A stretch of 64,000 nt of DNA from Occultella kanbiaonis (GTDB lineage Bacteria > Actinomycetota > Actinomycetes > Actinomycetales > Beutenbergiaceae): assembly GCF_009708215.1 (NCBI RefSeq), contig NZ_CP046175.1:1178001-1242000 (forward strand). The letters run 5' to 3'. Shown here in pieces: positions 23,076 to 30,231 of this stretch; the stretch's first letter is position 1, and each line of letters starts with the position of its first letter. Position numbers and translations under genes: made by a program. The notes beneath the pieces are model-generated. The model was given only the letters and a program-made list of their open reading frames with translations, was not told where the DNA came from and did not search any database.

Positions 23076-24148
23076 GCCGTGCCCGGGCCGTCGCCCCCGG
23101 CTGGACGACGGGTCGGCTCCGGCGCGGCCAACCAGGCGGCCACGTCGGCGAGCATGGCGCGCTTCGAGGAATCGGAGGCGCGGGAGGCCCGGATCGAGCC
23201 ACGCGCGAGCTCGGCCACCTCGGCGTCGTCGAAGCCGTGCACCGTCCGTGCGCTCTCGTACTGGGCCAGCAGCCTCGAGCCGAACAGCAACGGGTCGTCC
23301 GCACCGAGGGCGATCGTCGCGCCGGCGTCGACGAGGGTGCGCAGCGGCACCTCGGCCGGGGTCGCGTACACCCCGAGGGAGACGTTCGAGGCCGGGCACA
23401 CCTCGAAGGCGATTCCGTCGGCGACCACCTTCTCGAGCAGAGCCGGGTCCTCGCTGACCCGGACCCCGTGACCGAGGCGGTCCGGGTGCAGGTGGGCCAC
23501 GACCTGAGCGGCGTGCTCGGGCCCGAGGAGCTCGCCACCGTGGGGGACCAGGGCCAGGCCGGCGCGGGCCGCGATGTGGAAGGCCGCGGCGAAGTCCGAC
23601 GTCTCCCCGCGCCGCTCGTCGTTGCTGAGACCGAAGCCGATCACCCCGCCGGGACCGTCGTCGGCGTGCCGTGCCGCGAGCCTGGCCAAGGTCCTGGCCT
23701 CCAACGGGTGCCTCATCCGCGAGCACGCGATGATGATCGCGACCTCGACCCCGGTCGCCGCGCTCGCGGCCGCGGCCTCGTCGGTGACGATCTCCAGGGC
23801 GGGGGTGATGCCGCCCACGAACGGGGCGTAGGAGGTCGGGTCGACCTGGAGCTCGAGGCGCCTGGATCCCTCGGCGGCATCGGCCGCGGCCGCGTCCCGG
23901 ACGATCCGGCGCATGGCCGCTTCGCTGCGGACCACGGCCCGGGCCGCGTCGTACATGCGCTGGAACCGGAACCAGCCGCGCTCGTTGGCCGGGAGCCGGA
24001 GCGGGTCACCGGCGACGGTCTCCCGCAGCGCCTCCGGCAGTTGCATGCGACGCTCCGCGGCGAGCTCGGTGAGGGCCGCCGGGCTCATCGAGCCGGTGAA
24101 GTGCAGGTGCAGGTGCGCCTTGGGCAGGAGACGGAGATCGCGGGGCAC
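23072..24148 (-). CDS. add: Adenosine deaminase family protein
   Basis: A metal-dependent amidohydrolase of 358 residues. The zinc site is LPKAHLHLHFTG; further motifs are VPHGGELLG (HAGE equivalent), HLGHGV-like LGHGVRV, CPASNVSLG, and ALGADDPLLFG with the paired Asp. It should deaminate adenosine or a related purine, but HLHLHFTG and PHGGE deviate from classical adenosine deaminases, so the substrate is not certain. GTG 24148 is 7 nt after TAGAGT (24161-24156) and fits a leaderless start; GTG 24157 is the alternative. Its stop overlaps the hydrolase start. Confidence 0.75.
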   Translation of the reverse strand: MPRDLRLLPKAHLHLHFTGSMSPAALTELAAERRMQLPEALRETVAGDPLRLPANERGWFRFQRMYDAARAVVRSEAAMRRIVRDAAAADAAEGSRRLELQVDPTSYAPFVGGITPALEIVTDEAAAASAATGVEVAIIIACSRMRHPLEARTLARLAARHADDGPGGVIGFGLSNDERRGETSDFAAAFHIAARAGLALVPHGGELLGPEHAAQVVAHLHPDRLGHGVRVSEDPALLEKVVADGIAFEVCPASNVSLGVYATPAEVPLRTLVDAGATIALGADDPLLFGSRLLAQYESARTVHGFDDAEVAELARGSIRASRASDSSKRAMLADVAAWLAAPEPTRRPAGGDGPGTA

Positions 24149-24155
24149 GTTCGTC

Positions 24156-24161
24156 ACTCTA
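24156..24161 (-). promoter_or_regulatory. -10 element (TAGAGT) for the deaminase operon
   Basis: On the reverse strand TAGAGT is followed by seven bases and GTG 24148. The palindrome at 24170-24185 lies where the -35 and spacer should be, so a bound regulator would affect this promoter. Confidence 0.45.
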
Positions 24162-24169
24162 GGACGAGG

Positions 24170-24185
24170 ATGAGAGTTCTCTCAT
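24170..24185. promoter_or_regulatory. Palindrome ATGAGAGTTCTCTCAT, copy 1
   Basis: Perfect 7-bp arms around TT. The same 16 bases recur at 25479 and 26685. This copy lies between the divergent deaminase and phosphotransferase genes. Confidence 0.6.
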
Positions 24186-24222
24186 GCGGACCTCACGTCG
24201 ACGTCGATCGGGAGGTGGTGAG

Positions 24223-25482
24223 ATGGGCGGCATGGAGACGTCGGAGCCGAGCACGGCCGCCCGTGAGTCACGCGATCTCGAGGATCTCACCGGCCCGGGT
24301 CGCGTCGACATCGTGCGGGCCGCGCTGCTCGGGATCACCCCCGCCGACGGCGCGGCTCCGGTGACCGTGCAACTGCACCTGTCCGTGGAGGTCGACCGGG
24401 TCCACCACCGCCCGGGCGCCGGGGTCTCCGTCGGCTACCGCGTCGGTTACGACGGGGGCGGCGGTCGCGTCAACGAGTACCTCGTCGCGAGCACGGCGCC
24501 GCGGCTGCCCGAGTCCGATCAGGTGGCCCTGCTCGAGGACGGCGACAGGCAGGTGCGGGTCTGGCGCCATCCGCACGACCCGGCACTGCCGGGCCTGGCG
24601 CAGGCGTGCGACGCCGAGACGGTGGGGCGGTGGCTCACCGACATCGGACGCGATCCGGCCGGTCCGGTCCGGCTCGACCTGGTCAGCTACCGGCCCAGCC
24701 GGCGCGCGGTGCTGCGCGCGGGTGCCGGCACCGACGCCGTGTTCGTGAAGGTGCTGGCGCCGCGGCGGGTCGACGCCCTGCGTCGCCGGCACGAGGTGCT
24801 GACCGAGGCGGGCGTGCCCGCGCCGCGGGTCCTGGCTCAACCAGGGCCGGGGGTGCTCGTGACCGAGCGGGCACCGGGTCATGCCCTGGCCGAGGCGATC
24901 GCCGGGGCGCTGAGCAACCCGGCCGGGCTGCCCGGACCCGAGGTGCTCGAGTCCTGGCTGGATTCGCTCCCGGCTGCGGTCACCGACCTTCCGGCCCGCC
25001 CGTCCTGGGCGGATCGGATCGACTTCCACGCCGAGGCCGCCCGGGCCGCGCTGCCGGGAGAGGCGGACCGGATCACCCGCCTCGAGACCGGTGTCGCCGG
25101 CCTCCTCGCGCGGAGCCCGGACCGGCCACCGGTACCCACGCACGGCGACTTCTACGAGGCGAACGTGTTCACGGCCGACGGTGAGGTCACCGCCGTCATC
25201 GACGTGGACTCGCTCGGTCCCGGGCGGCGCGCGGACGACCTGGGCACCCTGCTCGGCCACGTGGCCGTGCTGCCCGCGCTCGCGCCGCGCGTCTACGCGC
25301 ACGTACCCGGGATCCTCCAAGAGTGGACGGCCTACTTCGAGACGCGGGCGGATCCCGTGGAGCTGCGGGCGCGCACCGCGGCCGTGGTGCTCTCCCTCGC
25401 GGCCGGGACCTCCCCGGAACAGGGGGTGGCGCGGCTCGCGGTCGCGGAGGAGTGGCACGCCGAGGCACGGCAGCGAACATGA
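24223..25482 (+). CDS. Aminoglycoside phosphotransferase-like (APH) family kinase
   Basis: A 419-residue protein. The N-terminal part (about 1-110) is not recognised; the C-terminal two thirds is an APH/choline kinase fold with HGDFYEANVF (catalytic Asp and Asn) and VIDVDSLGPGRRADDLG (metal site). N-lobe marks include FVKVLAPRR. The N-terminal segment VNEYLVASTAPRLPESDQVALLEDG resembles part of maltokinase-like or other two-domain kinases, but the substrate is unknown and no resistance role should be assumed. ATG 24223 follows GGGAGG by 7 nt; an ATG at 24184 lies inside the palindrome and is rejected. The stop codon is inside the next palindrome. Confidence 0.7.
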   Translation: MGGMETSEPSTAARESRDLEDLTGPGRVDIVRAALLGITPADGAAPVTVQLHLSVEVDRVHHRPGAGVSVGYRVGYDGGGGRVNEYLVASTAPRLPESDQVALLEDGDRQVRVWRHPHDPALPGLAQACDAETVGRWLTDIGRDPAGPVRLDLVSYRPSRRAVLRAGAGTDAVFVKVLAPRRVDALRRRHEVLTEAGVPAPRVLAQPGPGVLVTERAPGHALAEAIAGALSNPAGLPGPEVLESWLDSLPAAVTDLPARPSWADRIDFHAEAARAALPGEADRITRLETGVAGLLARSPDRPPVPTHGDFYEANVFTADGEVTAVIDVDSLGPGRRADDLGTLLGHVAVLPALAPRVYAHVPGILQEWTAYFETRADPVELRARTAAVVLSLAAGTSPEQGVARLAVAEEWHAEARQRT

Positions 25483-25494
25483 GAGTTCTCTCAT
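25479..25494. promoter_or_regulatory. Palindrome ATGAGAGTTCTCTCAT, copy 2
   Basis: Identical to the copy at 24170. Its right half is the first unit of the direct-repeat element before the first small exported protein; its left half carries the stop codon of the phosphotransferase gene. Confidence 0.65.
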
Positions 25495-25517
25495 CCGGGG
25501 CTCAGCGAGTTCTCATC
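25489..25517 (+). promoter_or_regulatory. Pho-box-like direct-repeat element B
   Basis: TCATC at 25491, TCAGC at 25502 and TCATC at 25513 are exactly 11 bp apart. Nine bases after the last unit is CAGGCT (25527-25532), an xANNNT -10 candidate. This is the layout of OmpR/PhoB-type activator sites. Confidence 0.55.
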
Positions 25518-25564
25518 CTCGCGTGGCAGGCTGGATCCGTCCGAGGAGGAGAGCGAGGCGACGC

Positions 25565-25921
25565 ATGCGCAAGCGAGCGGCATGGATGGTGACCGGAGCC
25601 CTTGGCCTCGCCGGGATGGCCGGAGGGTCGATCGCACTCGTCTGGGACCCGATCGGCGACGAGTCGTTGCCGGGCGTCGGCATCACGGCGCCGGAGCACG
25701 GTCAGGCAGTGACGGGTGACCTCACCGACCCTGCGTCGCAGGACCCGGCGACCGTGGCCCCACTCAGCGCCGTGACCGCGATCACCGCCGCGTCGGCGTC
25801 CGATCCGGCGGCCACCGACGACGAACCGTCCGCGCCGTCACCGGTGGCTCAGGCCTCACCGGTCTCGGCCCAGACCCCCGCCTCGGTCGAGTCGGCTCGG
25901 TCCGCGGGCTCCGCCGACTGA
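25565..25921 (+). CDS. Small exported Ala/Pro/Ser-rich protein, paralog 1
   Basis: A 118-residue protein of unknown function. The first 27 residues (MRKRAAWMVTGALGLAGMAG..) are a basic, then hydrophobic signal-type leader, followed by a low-complexity tail with DPATVAPLSAV, SPVAQASPVSA and an acidic end. No Cys, no lipobox and no LPXTG. It is the most diverged of four paralogs (26120, 26788, 27378); the shared core is KR.AW.VTG.LG and DPAT. It has its own ribosome binding site (GAGGAGGAG region) and the direct-repeat element upstream. The tail looks like a mucin-type region that could be O-mannosylated. Confidence 0.7.
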   Translation: MRKRAAWMVTGALGLAGMAGGSIALVWDPIGDESLPGVGITAPEHGQAVTGDLTDPASQDPATVAPLSAVTAITAASASDPAATDDEPSAPSPVAQASPVSAQTPASVESARSAGSAD

Positions 25922-25959
25922 CCCGGATCAACCCACCCCCGCGCAGGCGCCCGACCAGG

Positions 25960-25989
25960 AACGCTCGACGGCACCCGCCGTCGGGCGTT
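25960..25989 (+). terminator. Terminator hairpin after paralog 1
   Basis: 13-bp stem AACGCTCGACGGC / GCCGTCGGGCGTT with loop ACCC and one wobble pair. Confidence 0.65.
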
Positions 25990-26011
25990 CGTGGTTCGCG
26001 GGTGAGAGAGC

Positions 26012-26040
26012 TTTCATCTTGGTCTCCTTGTGGCCTCATC
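26012..26040 (+). promoter_or_regulatory. Pho-box-like direct-repeat element C
   Basis: TCATC at 26014, TCCTT at 26025 and TCATC at 26036, each 11 bp apart, with AACTGT (26050-26055) nine bases after the last unit as -10 candidate. It is preceded by a degenerate palindrome GTGAGAGAGCTTTCAT (26002-26017). Confidence 0.55.
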
Positions 26041-26119
26041 GGTGCACGGAACTGTGATGGGTGTCAGCAAGTGGATCTGGGTCCTGTTGTGGGATCTCGG
26101 GAACGTGGAGGAGAGCATC

Positions 26120-26578
26120 ATGAACAAGCGCACCGCATGGATCGTCACGGGGACGCTGGGTGTTGTGGCTGTGGCCGGTGGGGCGGTCGCTGCGTCGGCC
26201 GACTCGATGGGTCCGGCTCCGGCTCCGGAGCAGTCGGTGACGCAGACCGGGTCGGCGGTGTCGGCGGCGGCTCCTTCGGCGGCTTCTCCAGCGGCGCCGG
26301 CTGCTCCGGCGCCGGCGTCTCCTGCGCCGGTCGCGACGGATCCGGCGACGGTGGATCCGGGTAGTGCGGTCTCGGCGGTGACCGCGATCAGCGCGGTGTC
26401 GGCCCAGTCGGCGCCGGCGAGCCCGGTTTCGGCTCCGTCGCCGGTGTCCGCTCCGTCGCCGGTGGCGAGCCCGGTCTCGGCTCCGTCGCCGGTGTCCGCG
26501 GCGAGTCCGGTGTCCGCGCAGAGCCCGGCCTCACCGGCCAGCCCGGCCAGCGCCCCGTCGGCCAACTCCGGCGACTGA
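26120..26578 (+). CDS. Small exported Ala/Pro/Ser/Val-rich protein, paralog 2
   Basis: A 152-residue protein with signal-type leader MNKRTAWIVTGTLGVVAVAG (likely cut after AASA at about residue 27), a Thr/Val DPATVDPGSAVSAV core, and a tail built of SPVSA pentapeptides ending in NSGD. It has no recognised domain. GGAGGAG lies 6 nt before ATG 26120. In-frame ATGs upstream (26030) overlap the regulatory element and are rejected. Identical to the protein at 27378 except one residue. Exported low-complexity wall or matrix protein is my best guess. Confidence 0.72.
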   Translation: MNKRTAWIVTGTLGVVAVAGGAVAASADSMGPAPAPEQSVTQTGSAVSAAAPSAASPAAPAAPAPASPAPVATDPATVDPGSAVSAVTAISAVSAQSAPASPVSAPSPVSAPSPVASPVSAPSPVSAASPVSAQSPASPASPASAPSANSGD

Positions 26579-26619
26579 CCCCGGCGCCGGCCGGCGCACA
26601 CACCAGGACTTCACCGACG

Positions 26620-26651
26620 AACGCCCGACGGCACCCACGCCGTCGGGCGTT
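26620..26651 (+). terminator. Terminator hairpin after paralog 2
   Basis: Perfect 13-bp stem AACGCCCGACGGC / GCCGTCGGGCGTT, loop ACCCAC. Confidence 0.7.
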
Positions 26652-26684
26652 CCGCATGGCCGCTGTGGTGCCCGGGTCCCGAAG

Positions 26685-26700
26685 ATGAGAGTTCTCTCAT
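26685..26700. promoter_or_regulatory. Palindrome ATGAGAGTTCTCTCAT, copy 3
   Basis: Third identical copy of the 16-bp palindrome; its right arm is the first unit of direct-repeat element D. Confidence 0.65.
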
Positions 26701-26723
26701 CATCTGCTCCTCAACGTCTCATC
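26695..26723 (+). promoter_or_regulatory. Pho-box-like direct-repeat element D
   Basis: TCATC at 26697, TCCTC at 26708 and TCATC at 26719, again 11 bp apart, followed nine bases later by GAGACT (26733-26738) as -10 candidate. Confidence 0.55.
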
Positions 26724-26787
26724 AACCGTCCCGAGACTTGACGCAGTCGAGAGCCGCCGATCGCGGCGCACGAACGAGGAGCGAGAG

Positions 26788-27177
26788 TTGAACAAGCGAA
26801 CCGCATGGATGGTCACCGGGGCACTGGGCGTCGTGGGTGTGGCTGGTGCGTCGATCGCCGCGGCGGCCGACAACCGCACCGAGGACGACCTGCCCGGCGT
26901 GAGCATCACAGTGCCCAGCCAGTCGCCCTCGCCGGTGGAGACACCGGCACCGGCGCCCGCCCCCACCGACCCCGCAACGGTGGATCCGGGCAGTGCCGTG
27001 ACCGTCGTCAGCGCGCCAAGTCCCGCCGCACCGGCCACGGTGGCCCCCGCCCCCGCCCCGGCACCGGCACCGGCACCGACGAACTCCGCGCCGTCGCCGG
27101 TGGCACAGGCCTCACCGGTCTCGGCAGTGTCCGCCGCATCCGCGGTCTCGGCCGTGTCCGCCGACTCGGGGGACTGA
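26788..27177 (+). CDS. Small exported Ala/Pro/Ser-rich protein, paralog 3
   Basis: A 129-residue protein, start TTG 26788 (GAGGAG lies 6 nt upstream; the leader MNKRTAWMVTGALGVVGVAG matches its paralogs exactly at the TTG). The mature part has EDDLPGVSITVPSQ, shared with paralog 1 (LPGVGITAP), DPATVDPGSAVTVV, an Ala-Pro run, SPVAQASPVSA and the tail SADSGD. It therefore links the diverged paralog 1 with the duplicated pair. No Cys or sorting motif. Function unknown. Confidence 0.7.
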   Translation: MNKRTAWMVTGALGVVGVAGASIAAAADNRTEDDLPGVSITVPSQSPSPVETPAPAPAPTDPATVDPGSAVTVVSAPSPAAPATVAPAPAPAPAPAPTNSAPSPVAQASPVSAVSAASAVSAVSADSGD

Positions 27178-27189
27178 GGTTCATCACGA

Positions 27190-27222
27190 CGTCGGGTGGC
27201 CACCCGTCGGGGCCACCCGGCG
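27190..27222 (+). terminator. Terminator hairpin after paralog 3
   Basis: 12-bp stem CGTCGGGTGGCC / GGCCACCCGGCG with one wobble pair and a nine-base loop. Confidence 0.55.
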
Positions 27223-27269
27223 TTCGTGTGCCCGGCGCCGGCCTGAGCCCTCGTCGCGGGTGAGAGAGC

Positions 27270-27298
27270 TTTCATCTTGGTCTCCTTGTGGCCTCATC
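27270..27298 (+). promoter_or_regulatory. Pho-box-like direct-repeat element E
   Basis: Duplicate of element C (TCATC units at 27272 and 27294), carried within the 663-bp repeat. Confidence 0.55.
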
Positions 27299-27377
27299 GG
27301 TGCACGGAACTGTGATGGGTGTCAGCAAGTGGATCTGGGTCCTGTTGTGGGATCTCGGGAACGTGGAGGAGAGCATC

Positions 27378-27836
27378 ATGAACAAGCGCACCGCATGGAT
27401 CGTCACGGGGACGCTGGGTGTTGTGGCTGTGGCCGGTGGGGCGGTCGCTGCGTCGGCCGACTCGATGGGTCCGGCTCCGGCTCCGGAGCAGTCGGTGACG
27501 CAGACCGGGTCGGCGGTGTCGGCGGCGGCTCCTTCGGCGCCTTCTCCAGCGGCGCCGGCTGCTCCGGCGCCGGCGTCTCCTGCGCCGGTCGCGACGGATC
27601 CGGCGACGGTGGATCCGGGTAGTGCGGTCTCGGCGGTGACCGCGATCAGCGCGGTGTCGGCCCAGTCGGCGCCGGCGAGCCCGGTTTCGGCTCCGTCGCC
27701 GGTGTCCGCTCCGTCGCCGGTGGCGAGCCCGGTCTCGGCTCCGTCGCCGGTGTCCGCGGCGAGTCCGGTGTCCGCGCAGAGCCCGGCCTCACCGGCCAGC
27801 CCGGCCAGCGCCCCGTCGGCCAACTCCGGCGACTGA
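27378..27836 (+). CDS. Small exported Ala/Pro/Ser/Val-rich protein, paralog 4
   Basis: A 152-residue protein from the second copy of the duplicated segment, identical to the protein at 26120 except that SAASPAAP is SAPSPAAP. It has the same signal-type leader, SPVSA repeats, start, ribosome binding site, upstream element and terminator, so both should be expressed. It is the member closest to the two-component genes, which are convergent with it. Confidence 0.72.
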   Translation: MNKRTAWIVTGTLGVVAVAGGAVAASADSMGPAPAPEQSVTQTGSAVSAAAPSAPSPAAPAAPAPASPAPVATDPATVDPGSAVSAVTAISAVSAQSAPASPVSAPSPVSAPSPVASPVSAPSPVSAASPVSAQSPASPASPASAPSANSGD

Positions 27837-27877
27837 CCCCGGCGCCGGCCGGCGCACACACCAGGACTTCACCGACG

Positions 27878-27909
27878 AACGCCCGACGGCACCCACGCCG
27901 TCGGGCGTT
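27878..27909 (+). terminator. Terminator hairpin after paralog 4
   Basis: Same 13-bp stem as at 26620. Two short perfect palindromes CCGACGCCGTCGG follow at 27964-27976 and 28001-28013 in the gap before the response regulator stop and may end the opposite transcript. Confidence 0.7.
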
Positions 27910-28042
27910 CCGCATGCGGTACGGACCGCAGACGGTCGCATCGTCAGCCTCAGGCGCACGGCACCGACGCCGTCGGGCCCTGCGCCTCGTGTGTGCGGCA
28001 CCGACGCCGTCGGACGGCATCCGCCGGAGCGCCGCCGCGGCG

Positions 28043-28702
28043 TCAGCGCAGCCGGTAGCCCATCCCGCGCACCGTCTCGAAGCGCTCCGCACCGAGCTTC
28101 TTGCGCAGATAGCGCACGTACACGTCCACGACGTTCGAGCCCGGATCGAAGTCGTAGCCCCAGACCCGGGAGAGCAGCTGTTCGCGGGTCAGTACCTGCC
28201 CGGGATTGCGCAGGAACGTCTCGGCGAGGGTGAACTCCCGCGCCGAGAGGTCCACCTCGGTGCTTCCGGCGCGGGCACGACGGGAGCGCAGGTCCAGGGA
28301 GAGGTCGCCGTGCACGAGCGTCGTGGGCTCGGCGGCACCACCCTCGGACCGCAGCCGCAGGCGGACCCGCGCGAGGAGCTCCTCGAACCGGAACGGCTTG
28401 GCCATGTAGTCGTCGGCGCCGCTCTCCAGGCCGGCCACCGTGTCGGTGACCGAGTTCCGTGCGGTCAGGATGATCACCGGGAAGGTGACGTTCATCGCGC
28501 GGACCTGGCGCAGCACCGCGAAGCCGTCCATGTCCGGCAGGCCGAGGTCGAGGATCATGAGATCGAAGTCGCCGGTGCTCGCGAGGTCCACCGCCTCCCG
28601 CCCGGTGGTGACGGCGGTCGGCGCGTACCCGGCCGACCGCAGCCCCTTCGCGACGAACGACGAGATCCGGGTCTCGTCCTCAACGATCAGGATCTGGCTC
28701 AT
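28043..28702 (-). CDS. OmpR/PhoB-family response regulator
   Basis: A 219-residue two-domain regulator. The receiver has ILIVEDE (Glu8/Asp9), phospho-acceptor Asp52 in ILDLGLPDMDG, Thr80 and Lys102 (AKPF). The C-terminal winged helix (about 130-219) has VDLSAREFTLAE, LTREQLLSRVWG and VDVYVRYLRKKLG. Its ATG overlaps the histidine kinase stop (ATGA), so kinase and regulator are made together. The family binds tandem 11-bp direct repeats, which fits the four elements before the neighbouring exported-protein genes. Confidence 0.92.
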   Translation of the reverse strand: MSQILIVEDETRISSFVAKGLRSAGYAPTAVTTGREAVDLASTGDFDLMILDLGLPDMDGFAVLRQVRAMNVTFPVIILTARNSVTDTVAGLESGADDYMAKPFRFEELLARVRLRLRSEGGAAEPTTLVHGDLSLDLRSRRARAGSTEVDLSAREFTLAETFLRNPGQVLTREQLLSRVWGYDFDPGSNVVDVYVRYLRKKLGAERFETVRGMGYRLR

Positions 28703-30231
28703 CGGCGCTCCAGGGCGGTGGTGCTCGGCGCGTCGCCGGCGGGGGAGGGGGGCTCGGGCGGTTCGTGGGTGACGTCCGAATCGGCCGACTCGGAGTCGGC
28801 CTTCTCGGACTCTGCCACGAGGGGCAGGTAGATGCTGACCGTGGTGCCCTTGGCGAGCCTGGACTCGACCGCCGCGCGGCCACCGTGCGCGACGGCGATC
28901 GAGCGCACGATGGTCAGGCCGAGACCGGAGCCCTCGGCGGGGCTACCGGCGCGTTCGAAGCGGTCGAAGATCCTGTCCAGGTGTTGCGGTGCGATCCCGA
29001 CGCCCTCGTCCCGGACCCAGAGCCGGACCTCGGTGTCCGTCGCCGAGCTGCCCAGGGCGATGGTGGACCCCGGCTCGGAGAACTTCACCGCGTTCGACGC
29101 GAGCTGGAGCAGTGCCTGGGTGGTCCGGCGGGGATCGATCTCGGCGGTGACATCCGCGAGACCGTCGAGGACCCAGCGGCGGTCCGCGAGCGTGCGGGCC
29201 TTGGTGAGGACCTCGTCGGTGAGGAGCGCGATGTCCGTGGGTTCGGCCATGACGAAGTCGGGTCGGCCCGCCTTCGCCAGCGTGACCAGGTCCTCCACCA
29301 GGCCGTTCATCCGGTCGAGCTCGTCGAGGACGAGCTCCTTGGTGGCGGCGGCGTCCGCGGGGTCCGTGGGATCCATGAGTTCGAGGTGACCGCGGACGAT
29401 GGTCAGCGGCGTGCGCAGCTCGTGCCCGACGTCGTCGAGCAGCTGGCGCTGGGACCCGAACGCATCCTCCAGGCGAGCCAGCATGCTGTTCACGGTCTCG
29501 GTCAGCACGGCTAGGTCGTCGTTGCCTACCACCGCTATCCGCCGCGAGAGGTCGCTGGAACTGGAGATCTCGGCAGCGGTCGTCCGCAGGAGCTTGATCG
29601 GTTCGAGGAGGCTACCGACCACGAACCAGCCGATGATGGCCATCCAGACGATCGCGCCGAGCGCGACCAGGGCGTAGGTGCGGAACGTCTCTCCCAGCGC
29701 CGCCGTCTCTGCATCGAGGTCCCAAGCGAGCACAAGCGCACCGGGCACGCCACCAGGCTCGGGTGCGACCGGCACCGTGGCAACCATGTAATTGCGCGCA
29801 TCGGTAGCAACCTGGCGGATCGGCTGCTCCTCCCAGCTTGCAGTTTCAGCGATCGCGGCGACGAGACCAGGGTCCTCAGCAAGCCAGCGCTGGGTAGGAC
29901 CGACATCGGCAACCTGGTCCACTTCGGAGCCGAGCATCGCGAACATGGCTTCGTTCTCCTGCACCACCATTCGGCTCAGAGCCGTGTGGAGTAGGGAGCG
30001 GGCGGTTGCGAAGGGTTCCCCGGTCGCGGGGTCGATGCCTTCCCGGGACAGGGTCTCGAATTCCGTCATCGAATCCTTCAAGACAGCCTCGATGCGACCG
30101 TCGATGCGCTGCGACTCGAGGATGTAGGCCGTCGTGCCGGCCAAGGCCACGGTGAGGGTGGTCAGCAGCACGAGGGCGACCAGAACCCGGGTGCGCACCG
30201 AAGCGCGCAGGCGGGAGCGTCGGGTGGCCAT
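28699..30231 (-). CDS. Sensor histidine kinase
   Basis: A 510-residue membrane kinase: span 1 at about 17-38, an extracytoplasmic sensor of about 145 residues, span 2 at about 186-207, a HAMP domain, dimerisation helix with phospho-acceptor His270 (DDVGHELRTPLT), and a HATPase with QLASNAVKF, DEGVGI and GSGLGL. The C-terminus has an extra acidic Ser/Pro tail of about 45 residues. The kinase comes first in the operon, ahead of the regulator, the reverse of the commoner order. GATAAT six bases before ATG 30231 suggests a leaderless mRNA. The sensed signal is unknown. Confidence 0.9.
   Translation of the reverse strand: MATRRSRLRASVRTRVLVALVLLTTLTVALAGTTAYILESQRIDGRIEAVLKDSMTEFETLSREGIDPATGEPFATARSLLHTALSRMVVQENEAMFAMLGSEVDQVADVGPTQRWLAEDPGLVAAIAETASWEEQPIRQVATDARNYMVATVPVAPEPGGVPGALVLAWDLDAETAALGETFRTYALVALGAIVWMAIIGWFVVGSLLEPIKLLRTTAAEISSSSDLSRRIAVVGNDDLAVLTETVNSMLARLEDAFGSQRQLLDDVGHELRTPLTIVRGHLELMDPTDPADAAATKELVLDELDRMNGLVEDLVTLAKAGRPDFVMAEPTDIALLTDEVLTKARTLADRRWVLDGLADVTAEIDPRRTTQALLQLASNAVKFSEPGSTIALGSSATDTEVRLWVRDEGVGIAPQHLDRIFDRFERAGSPAEGSGLGLTIVRSIAVAHGGRAAVESRLAKGTTVSIYLPLVAESEKADSESADSDVTHEPPEPPSPAGDAPSTTALERR

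Follow-up and report, generated by a model that had tools for sequence, protein, structure and literature searches.

A two-component system and its putative operator at genes for exported low-complexity proteins in Occultella kanbiaonis and other Actinomycetes

Occultella kanbiaonis carries four small genes for exported low-complexity proteins beside an OmpR/PhoB-type response regulator and a sensor histidine kinase, within a stretch of 64,000 nucleotides that we analyzed as a whole (contig NZ_CP046175.1, positions 1,178,001 to 1,242,000; hereafter the window, numbered from its first letter). The four genes are each preceded by the same compact operator, an arrangement of operators and paralogs that exceeds chance. 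Our best reading is that the locus belongs to a widespread, uncharacterized two-component system for a surface program. The gene order in the window is an adenosine deaminase (ADA) and APH-like pair, the four small plus-strand genes, the convergent regulator and kinase, tRNA-Trp, secE and nusG, the last two being assigned by reading.

Operators, exported proteins and the regulator-kinase pair

The operator reads TGAGA-N4-TCTCAT-N17-CTCA-N12-A-NNN-T, a pattern of 17 fixed letters made up of an inverted TGAGA half site, three TCTCAT-type units at 11-bp steps and an AnnnT element nine bases after the last unit. The first-pass annotation of this DNA had described TCATC units spaced by 22 bp with a weaker one at 11 bp and, nine bases on, an xANNNT hexamer, and all of these are present at all four promoters. 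To this we add the inverted half upstream of unit 1, a duplication involving genes 2 and 4, and a Ser/Thr residue at every third position of the protein tails. Operator 1 (25480..25532, on the plus strand like the other operators and the small genes) matches the 17-letter pattern without mismatch, has CAGGCT as its -10 element and precedes paralog 1 (25565..25921; 118 amino acids, no AxA cleavage motif by eye). Operator 2 (26003..26055, AACTGT, one mismatch) precedes paralog 2 (26120..26578; 152 amino acids, with Ser/Thr every third residue), operator 3 (26686..26738, GAGACT, no mismatch) precedes paralog 3 (26788..27177; 129 amino acids from a TTG start), and operator 4 (27261..27313, AACTGT, one mismatch) precedes paralog 4 (27378..27836; 152 amino acids). 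Operator 4 is a copy of operator 2, and paralog 4 is nearly identical to paralog 2; the segments 25996-26658 and 27254-27916 of the window differ by 1 mismatch in 661 bases, and genes 2 and 4 with their promoters are thus one duplication. A close paralog pair is also present in Occultella aeris (L034), so the duplication may have recurred or gene conversion may have acted.

The operator is specific within the O. kanbiaonis genome (5.65 Mb). Its palindromic half, TGAGAGNNCTNTCATC, has six exact matches genome-wide, all at 24169-27276 of the window, and none in the reversed control; one mismatch adds six further matches, two in the cluster and four (at three places) elsewhere. The pair TCTCATC-N16-CTCATC at no more than one mismatch finds the four promoters and two other places, against one match for the control. 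When the full 17-letter pattern was searched at up to three mismatches, the four promoters were recovered (0, 0, 1 and 1 mismatches) with none in the reversed control, the other matches being the operator-3 palindrome in backward reading (2) and two sites elsewhere in the genome (2 and 3). The first of these two sites (4745288; L215 1501-1553) stands some 100 bases ahead of a gene for a membrane-type PIG-L protein (N-acetylglucosamine de-N-acetylase), which is a possible further target.

Positions left free in the searches support the same architecture. Among 103 sites typed from the 134 found in the scan of the order described below, the middle unit keeps its T in 98% and its C in 93%. A set of 107 unique sites was collected from 100 relative loci and the window at up to 2 of 15 mismatches and without a -10 requirement; in 71 of these AnnnT stands at the stated offset, against at most nine at each of 35 other offsets. 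The sites that do not have it there include backward-read palindromes and sites in the ADA/APH intergenic region.

The four products share a leader like MNKRTAWIVTGALGVVGVAG and a tail rich in Ala, Pro, Ser and Val, as the annotation had also noted for all four. None belongs to a Pfam family, and NCBIfam gives only sub-threshold matches for three of them (PepSY_MTB leader, GltJ, SrfA). An origin from PepSY proteins was considered and rejected: no Pfam PepSY domain was found, and NF051432 aligns over N-terminal residues only, at 10-15 bits against a threshold of 60. For the periodicity of the tails, 52 small open reading frames (ORFs) under operator control were found and 51 tested, with identical sequences counted once and close orthologues kept; by eye, four (L159, L170, L090, L098) are either wrong or belong to another type; they were kept in the set of 51 and dropped for a set of 48. 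In 42 of the 51 the Ser/Thr autocorrelation is highest at lag 3 or 6, and at lag 3 its z exceeds 2 in 38. Filler residues vary between separate genera (SPA, SAQ, NTP, TAN) while the spacing of three stays, and serine is coded by both AGY and TCN, at least twice each, in 44 of 49 ORFs. An Asp or Glu lies within the final three residues in 40 of the set of 48, compared with 44 of 172 control proteins.

The polyproline II helix repeats with three residues per turn, so a tail of Ser/Thr triplets could form a rod with one hydroxyl face. The window proteins may be rod-like surface elements, their tails with Ser/Thr every third residue being probably O-glycosylated. PF02366 matches at two loci in the O. 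kanbiaonis genome, which makes O-mannosylation of the tails possible at most.

The regulator (28043..28702, minus strand, 219 amino acids) matches PF00072 and PF00486, and the adjacent kinase (28699..30231, minus strand, 510 amino acids) has HAMP, HisKA and HATPase domains and, by reading, two membrane segments; all five domains score over the Pfam gathering thresholds. Assignment to a named subfamily failed. The regulator reaches 179 bits against a cut-off of 296 for the PhoB equivalog TIGR02154, 205 against 279 for TIGR01387 (CopR/CztR/SilR, heavy metal), 198 against 330 for NF007928 (PmrA/BasR), 185 against 300 for MtrA and 184 against 350 for CseB, and it stays below the NCBIfam cut-off for each of the best 25 of 104 matches, among which TIGR01387 and NF007928 are the top curated profiles. 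Its nearest solved relatives in the PDB are PrrA, PhoP and BasR, and the regulator of O. aeris (Ruaniaceae, Micrococcales) is 99% identical to it.

Distribution and targets in other genomes

If the regulator acts at this operator, the two should occur together. Among 297 genomes of the order, searched for the operator at no more than one mismatch and the regulator at E<=1e-75 (up to 10 candidates per genome scored), we found 134 operator sites in 81 genomes and a single reversed-control site. The regulator is present in 117 of the 297, including 72 of the 81 operator genomes (Fisher 1e-27, uncorrected for relatedness and overstated), and no more than 5 kb separates it from 85 of the 134 sites, which are spread over 66 of the 72 genomes having both. 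In a sample of 296 genomes of the class, searched for the exact operator and with the same regulator threshold, there were 35 sites in 26 genomes and no reversed-control site; the regulator is present in 83 genomes, including 23 of the 26 (Fisher 2e-11, with the same overstatement), and 22 of the 35 sites are no further than 3.5 kb from it. The first-pass annotation had proposed that the pair activates the four genes and had named missing co-occurrence in related genomes as what would speak against it. Linkage and co-occurrence instead favor the proposal, and the order murB, ADA, APH, paralogs, regulator/kinase and nusG is largely kept in the family where contigs reach, with the orientation of the regulator pair reversed in L042 and L043.

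A first protein search found the paralogs in 20 of 39 genomes, O. kanbiaonis included, and missed some (for example in G008). Copy number per genome ranges from one to at least four, and not all copies are linked to the regulator; several unlinked copies also carry the operator: one on another contig (G003 C18), one 0.7 Mb from the regulator (G022) and two in G023 (C14 and C38). At one further unlinked copy (L038, G003) the operator was not found at the thresholds used.

The regulator-operator module extends beyond the window locus and beyond the order. An operon encoding an exported acidic protein, the kinase and the regulator is preceded by the operator, in exact or degenerate form, in Streptomyces, Rhodococcus, Nocardioides and others. 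Of 80 regulator loci, 53 allowed the kinase start to be assigned and scanned, and in 36 of these 53 a small exported Pro/Ser/Thr-rich protein, usually with an Asp-rich end, passed our filter directly upstream of the kinase; one of the 36 (L113) is a wrong ORF by eye. We trained a matrix on 60 operator sites from the order; by its score, 30 of 35 regions upstream of this operon exceed the 99th percentile of 1200 control windows, and 21 of the 35 have their match 59-61 bases before the assigned start. No region exceeds the control maximum, itself probably a true site in these loci. Streptomyces half sites are often TGAAGA and TTCAT. The window may thus be a displaced and multiplied form of a wider, self-regulated operon. 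A small exported protein with a Pro-rich spacer and a poly-Asp end, its gene often overlapping that of the kinase, was seen just upstream of the kinase in L084, L085, L089, L091, L093, L094, L098, L111, L135 and others.

Among seven cyanobacterial loci scanned, an exact operator core is present in L106 (11865) and L127 (1197), and a two-mismatch core in L134 (13253), L150 and L157, inside the kinase gene in the last. In L106 and L134 the core precedes GT28-like genes near relatives of the regulator. The putative regulator-operator pair is one that recurs over the Actinomycetes, with the operator core beside regulator relatives in some cyanobacteria.

Genes other than the paralogs also follow the operator. 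Of 29 class loci read by eye, 24 have an APH-like kinase (in 11), a small exported protein or the two together downstream (two loci overlap), and five have no clear target by eye (L167, L169, L176, L186, L189). We chose 20 stretches from the order scan, with targets again read by eye and Pfam run on ten proteins: seven have a GT28-like gene, beside which a group-1 glycosyltransferase stands in five; eight have an exported low-complexity or acidic protein; and one each has APH, DUF4956 with a VTC-like neighbor by eye, and a sodium:sulfate-type symporter with glycerate kinase, while in two (L250, L265) no target could be made out clearly by eye. L098 was confirmed to have DUF4956 and VTC, and G009 a group-2 glycosyltransferase. 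The sodium:sulfate-type symporter is under the operator in L262 (by Pfam, with glycerate kinase) and in L136 and L159 (by eye), and it lies beside the regulator in L111. In Rathayibacter sp. SD072 (L155 7727-10202) a pair of GT28-like and group-1 glycosyltransferase genes lies at least 5.6 kb from the regulator. In L182 an operator that lies 0.36 Mb away from the regulator in G262 stands upstream of an exported protein with regular Gly/Asp repeats, which resembles a bactofilin by eye.

Proposed mechanism and alternatives

The explanation we favor, and hold to be rather probable, is a two-component system that switches on exported low-complexity proteins through this operator as part of a program that changes the cell surface. 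The kinase would phosphorylate the regulator encoded at 28043-28702, which would then bind the four half sites (one inverted and three direct, at 11-bp steps) and recruit RNA polymerase to the -10 element nine bases downstream, so that each of the four exported proteins would be switched on by its own operator. The 11-bp repeats and the fixed -10 spacing fit the activation of OmpR/PhoB type that the annotation had envisaged. The outputs would be extended, exported low-complexity proteins and, in other genera, also glycosyltransferases, the DUF4956-VTC pair, the APH-like kinase and the anion symporter; the pathway would answer an envelope condition by changing the surface. On comparative sequence evidence the link among regulator, operator and paralogs is strongly supported, while binding by this particular regulator, activation, export and a surface function are what we infer from it.

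Several observations weigh against this explanation. The O. kanbiaonis genome has no operator at 0-1 mismatch beyond the cluster, and one search, made without a positive control, found no GT28 relative there, so the link to glycans comes mainly from other genera. At E<=1e-75 no regulator was found in 9 of the 81 genomes of the order that carry the operator, nor in 3 of the 26 of the class; conversely, the operator search at the stringency used came up empty in 45 of 117 and 60 of 83 regulator genomes, respectively. Of 14 control genomes, 8 likewise have PF02366 matches, and most Asp-rich forms have no period-3 Ser/Thr register.

The exported proteins might instead be accessory or feedback partners of the kinase that extend through the wall, expose an acidic end, and either tune the signal or report it. 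This we regard as unlikely, if still a live possibility, because the operon position in other genera keeps sensor feedback in play: the gene for the exported protein stands immediately 5' of the kinase gene, and frequently overlaps it, in the 36 of 53 loci (with the one wrong ORF), with a matching operator at 30 of 35, and terminal Asp or Glu is far more frequent than in control proteins. Such a role sits poorly with a copy number of one to at least four, with the existence of unlinked copies, with tails that change fast, and with operator targets that are not sensors; these other targets make us lean to an envelope role. The two roles could be joined in a self-gauging program, in which the main product, an exported rod built from a leader, an extended spacer (Ser/Thr triplets or Pro-rich) and an acidic tip, would serve both as surface material or glycan acceptor and as a signal read by the kinase. 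We consider this doubtful; if true, the cell would sense how well its own coat is built.

It is improbable that the tails are neutral expansions of short-repeat DNA with no selected structure, leaving only leader and promoter to matter. Their DNA is repeat-rich and their length varies between relatives, yet the spacing of three is kept with different fillers in separate genera and serine is drawn from both codon families. Most improbable of all is that the operators are PHO boxes through which PhoP, rather than the neighboring regulator, drives the genes under phosphate limitation. PhoP units are likewise 11-nt direct repeats, GTTCAC in type according to PMC6754071 (which cites Sola-Landa 2008), and DUF4956-VTC is among the operator targets. 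Here, however, the unit differs, the first half is inverted, the operator is linked to and co-occurs with the neighboring regulator, and no pst or phosphatase gene was noticed by eye among the targets read.

Relation to known systems and the partial operator

The label "pho-box-like" in the first-pass annotation holds for the architecture, an OmpR-family regulator with 11-nt direct repeats, and fails for the sequence and the family: the units are of TCTCAT type, though some middle units read TTCAC or GTCAC, the regulator lies below the PhoB cut-off, and the targets are different. The best-scoring profiles, CopR/CztR/SilR and PmrA/BasR, fall short by enough bits that the regulator is not a member of either. 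PolS-PolR, considered for a link to polyphosphate, was rejected, its regulator being DevR-like. HbpS-SenS-SenR resembles our proposal in that an exported protein works with a kinase-regulator pair. The same is reportedly true of CseA-CseBC. In the present case, by contrast, the exported protein is of low complexity, often multi-copy and itself a putative target.

The probable orthologue of the Streptomyces loci, to judge by gene order, is SCO2142/SCO2143 of Streptomyces coelicolor. In PMC9739842 this pair is listed as OmpR-type without a name, and PMC3498368 reports it as unaltered by alpha-amylase overproduction in S. lividans, with data not shown there. O-mannosylated actinobacterial exported proteins and linkers (PMC12757957) also have Ser/Thr in Pro/Ala-containing stretches; the placement at every third residue sets the present tails apart, and their modification is a candidate only. 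We found no account of this kinase/regulator/exported-protein module in the literature, a weak negative since subscription journals were thinly covered.

Within a class to which antibiotic producers belong, an orphan two-component system gains a readable operator, a list of candidate targets and an output that can be tested, and many otherwise unannotated low-complexity exported proteins are tied to one putative control system. An exact search for the operator is feasible (its reversed control gave 0 sites in the 296 genomes and 1 in the 297), so that members of the regulon can be catalogued for each genome and a reporter used to look for the signal.

The annotation had counted five elements. 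Four are the full operators given above; the fifth (24171..24208, plus strand) is partial, consisting of the TGAGAG inverted half and units 1 and 2 with no -10 at the canonical place. It sits between the divergent ADA and APH genes and is kept in three relatives of the same genus (L033, L034, L035). The APH-like phosphotransferase, a conserved neighbor with an N-terminal extension, occupies 24223..25482 on the plus strand. At 24140-24190 of the window, TAGAGT stands a few bases 5' of the GTG start of the adenosine deaminase gene, as in a leaderless transcript, with the partial operator palindrome just upstream; TACAGT-GTG arrangements were seen by eye in L046, L050 and L052.

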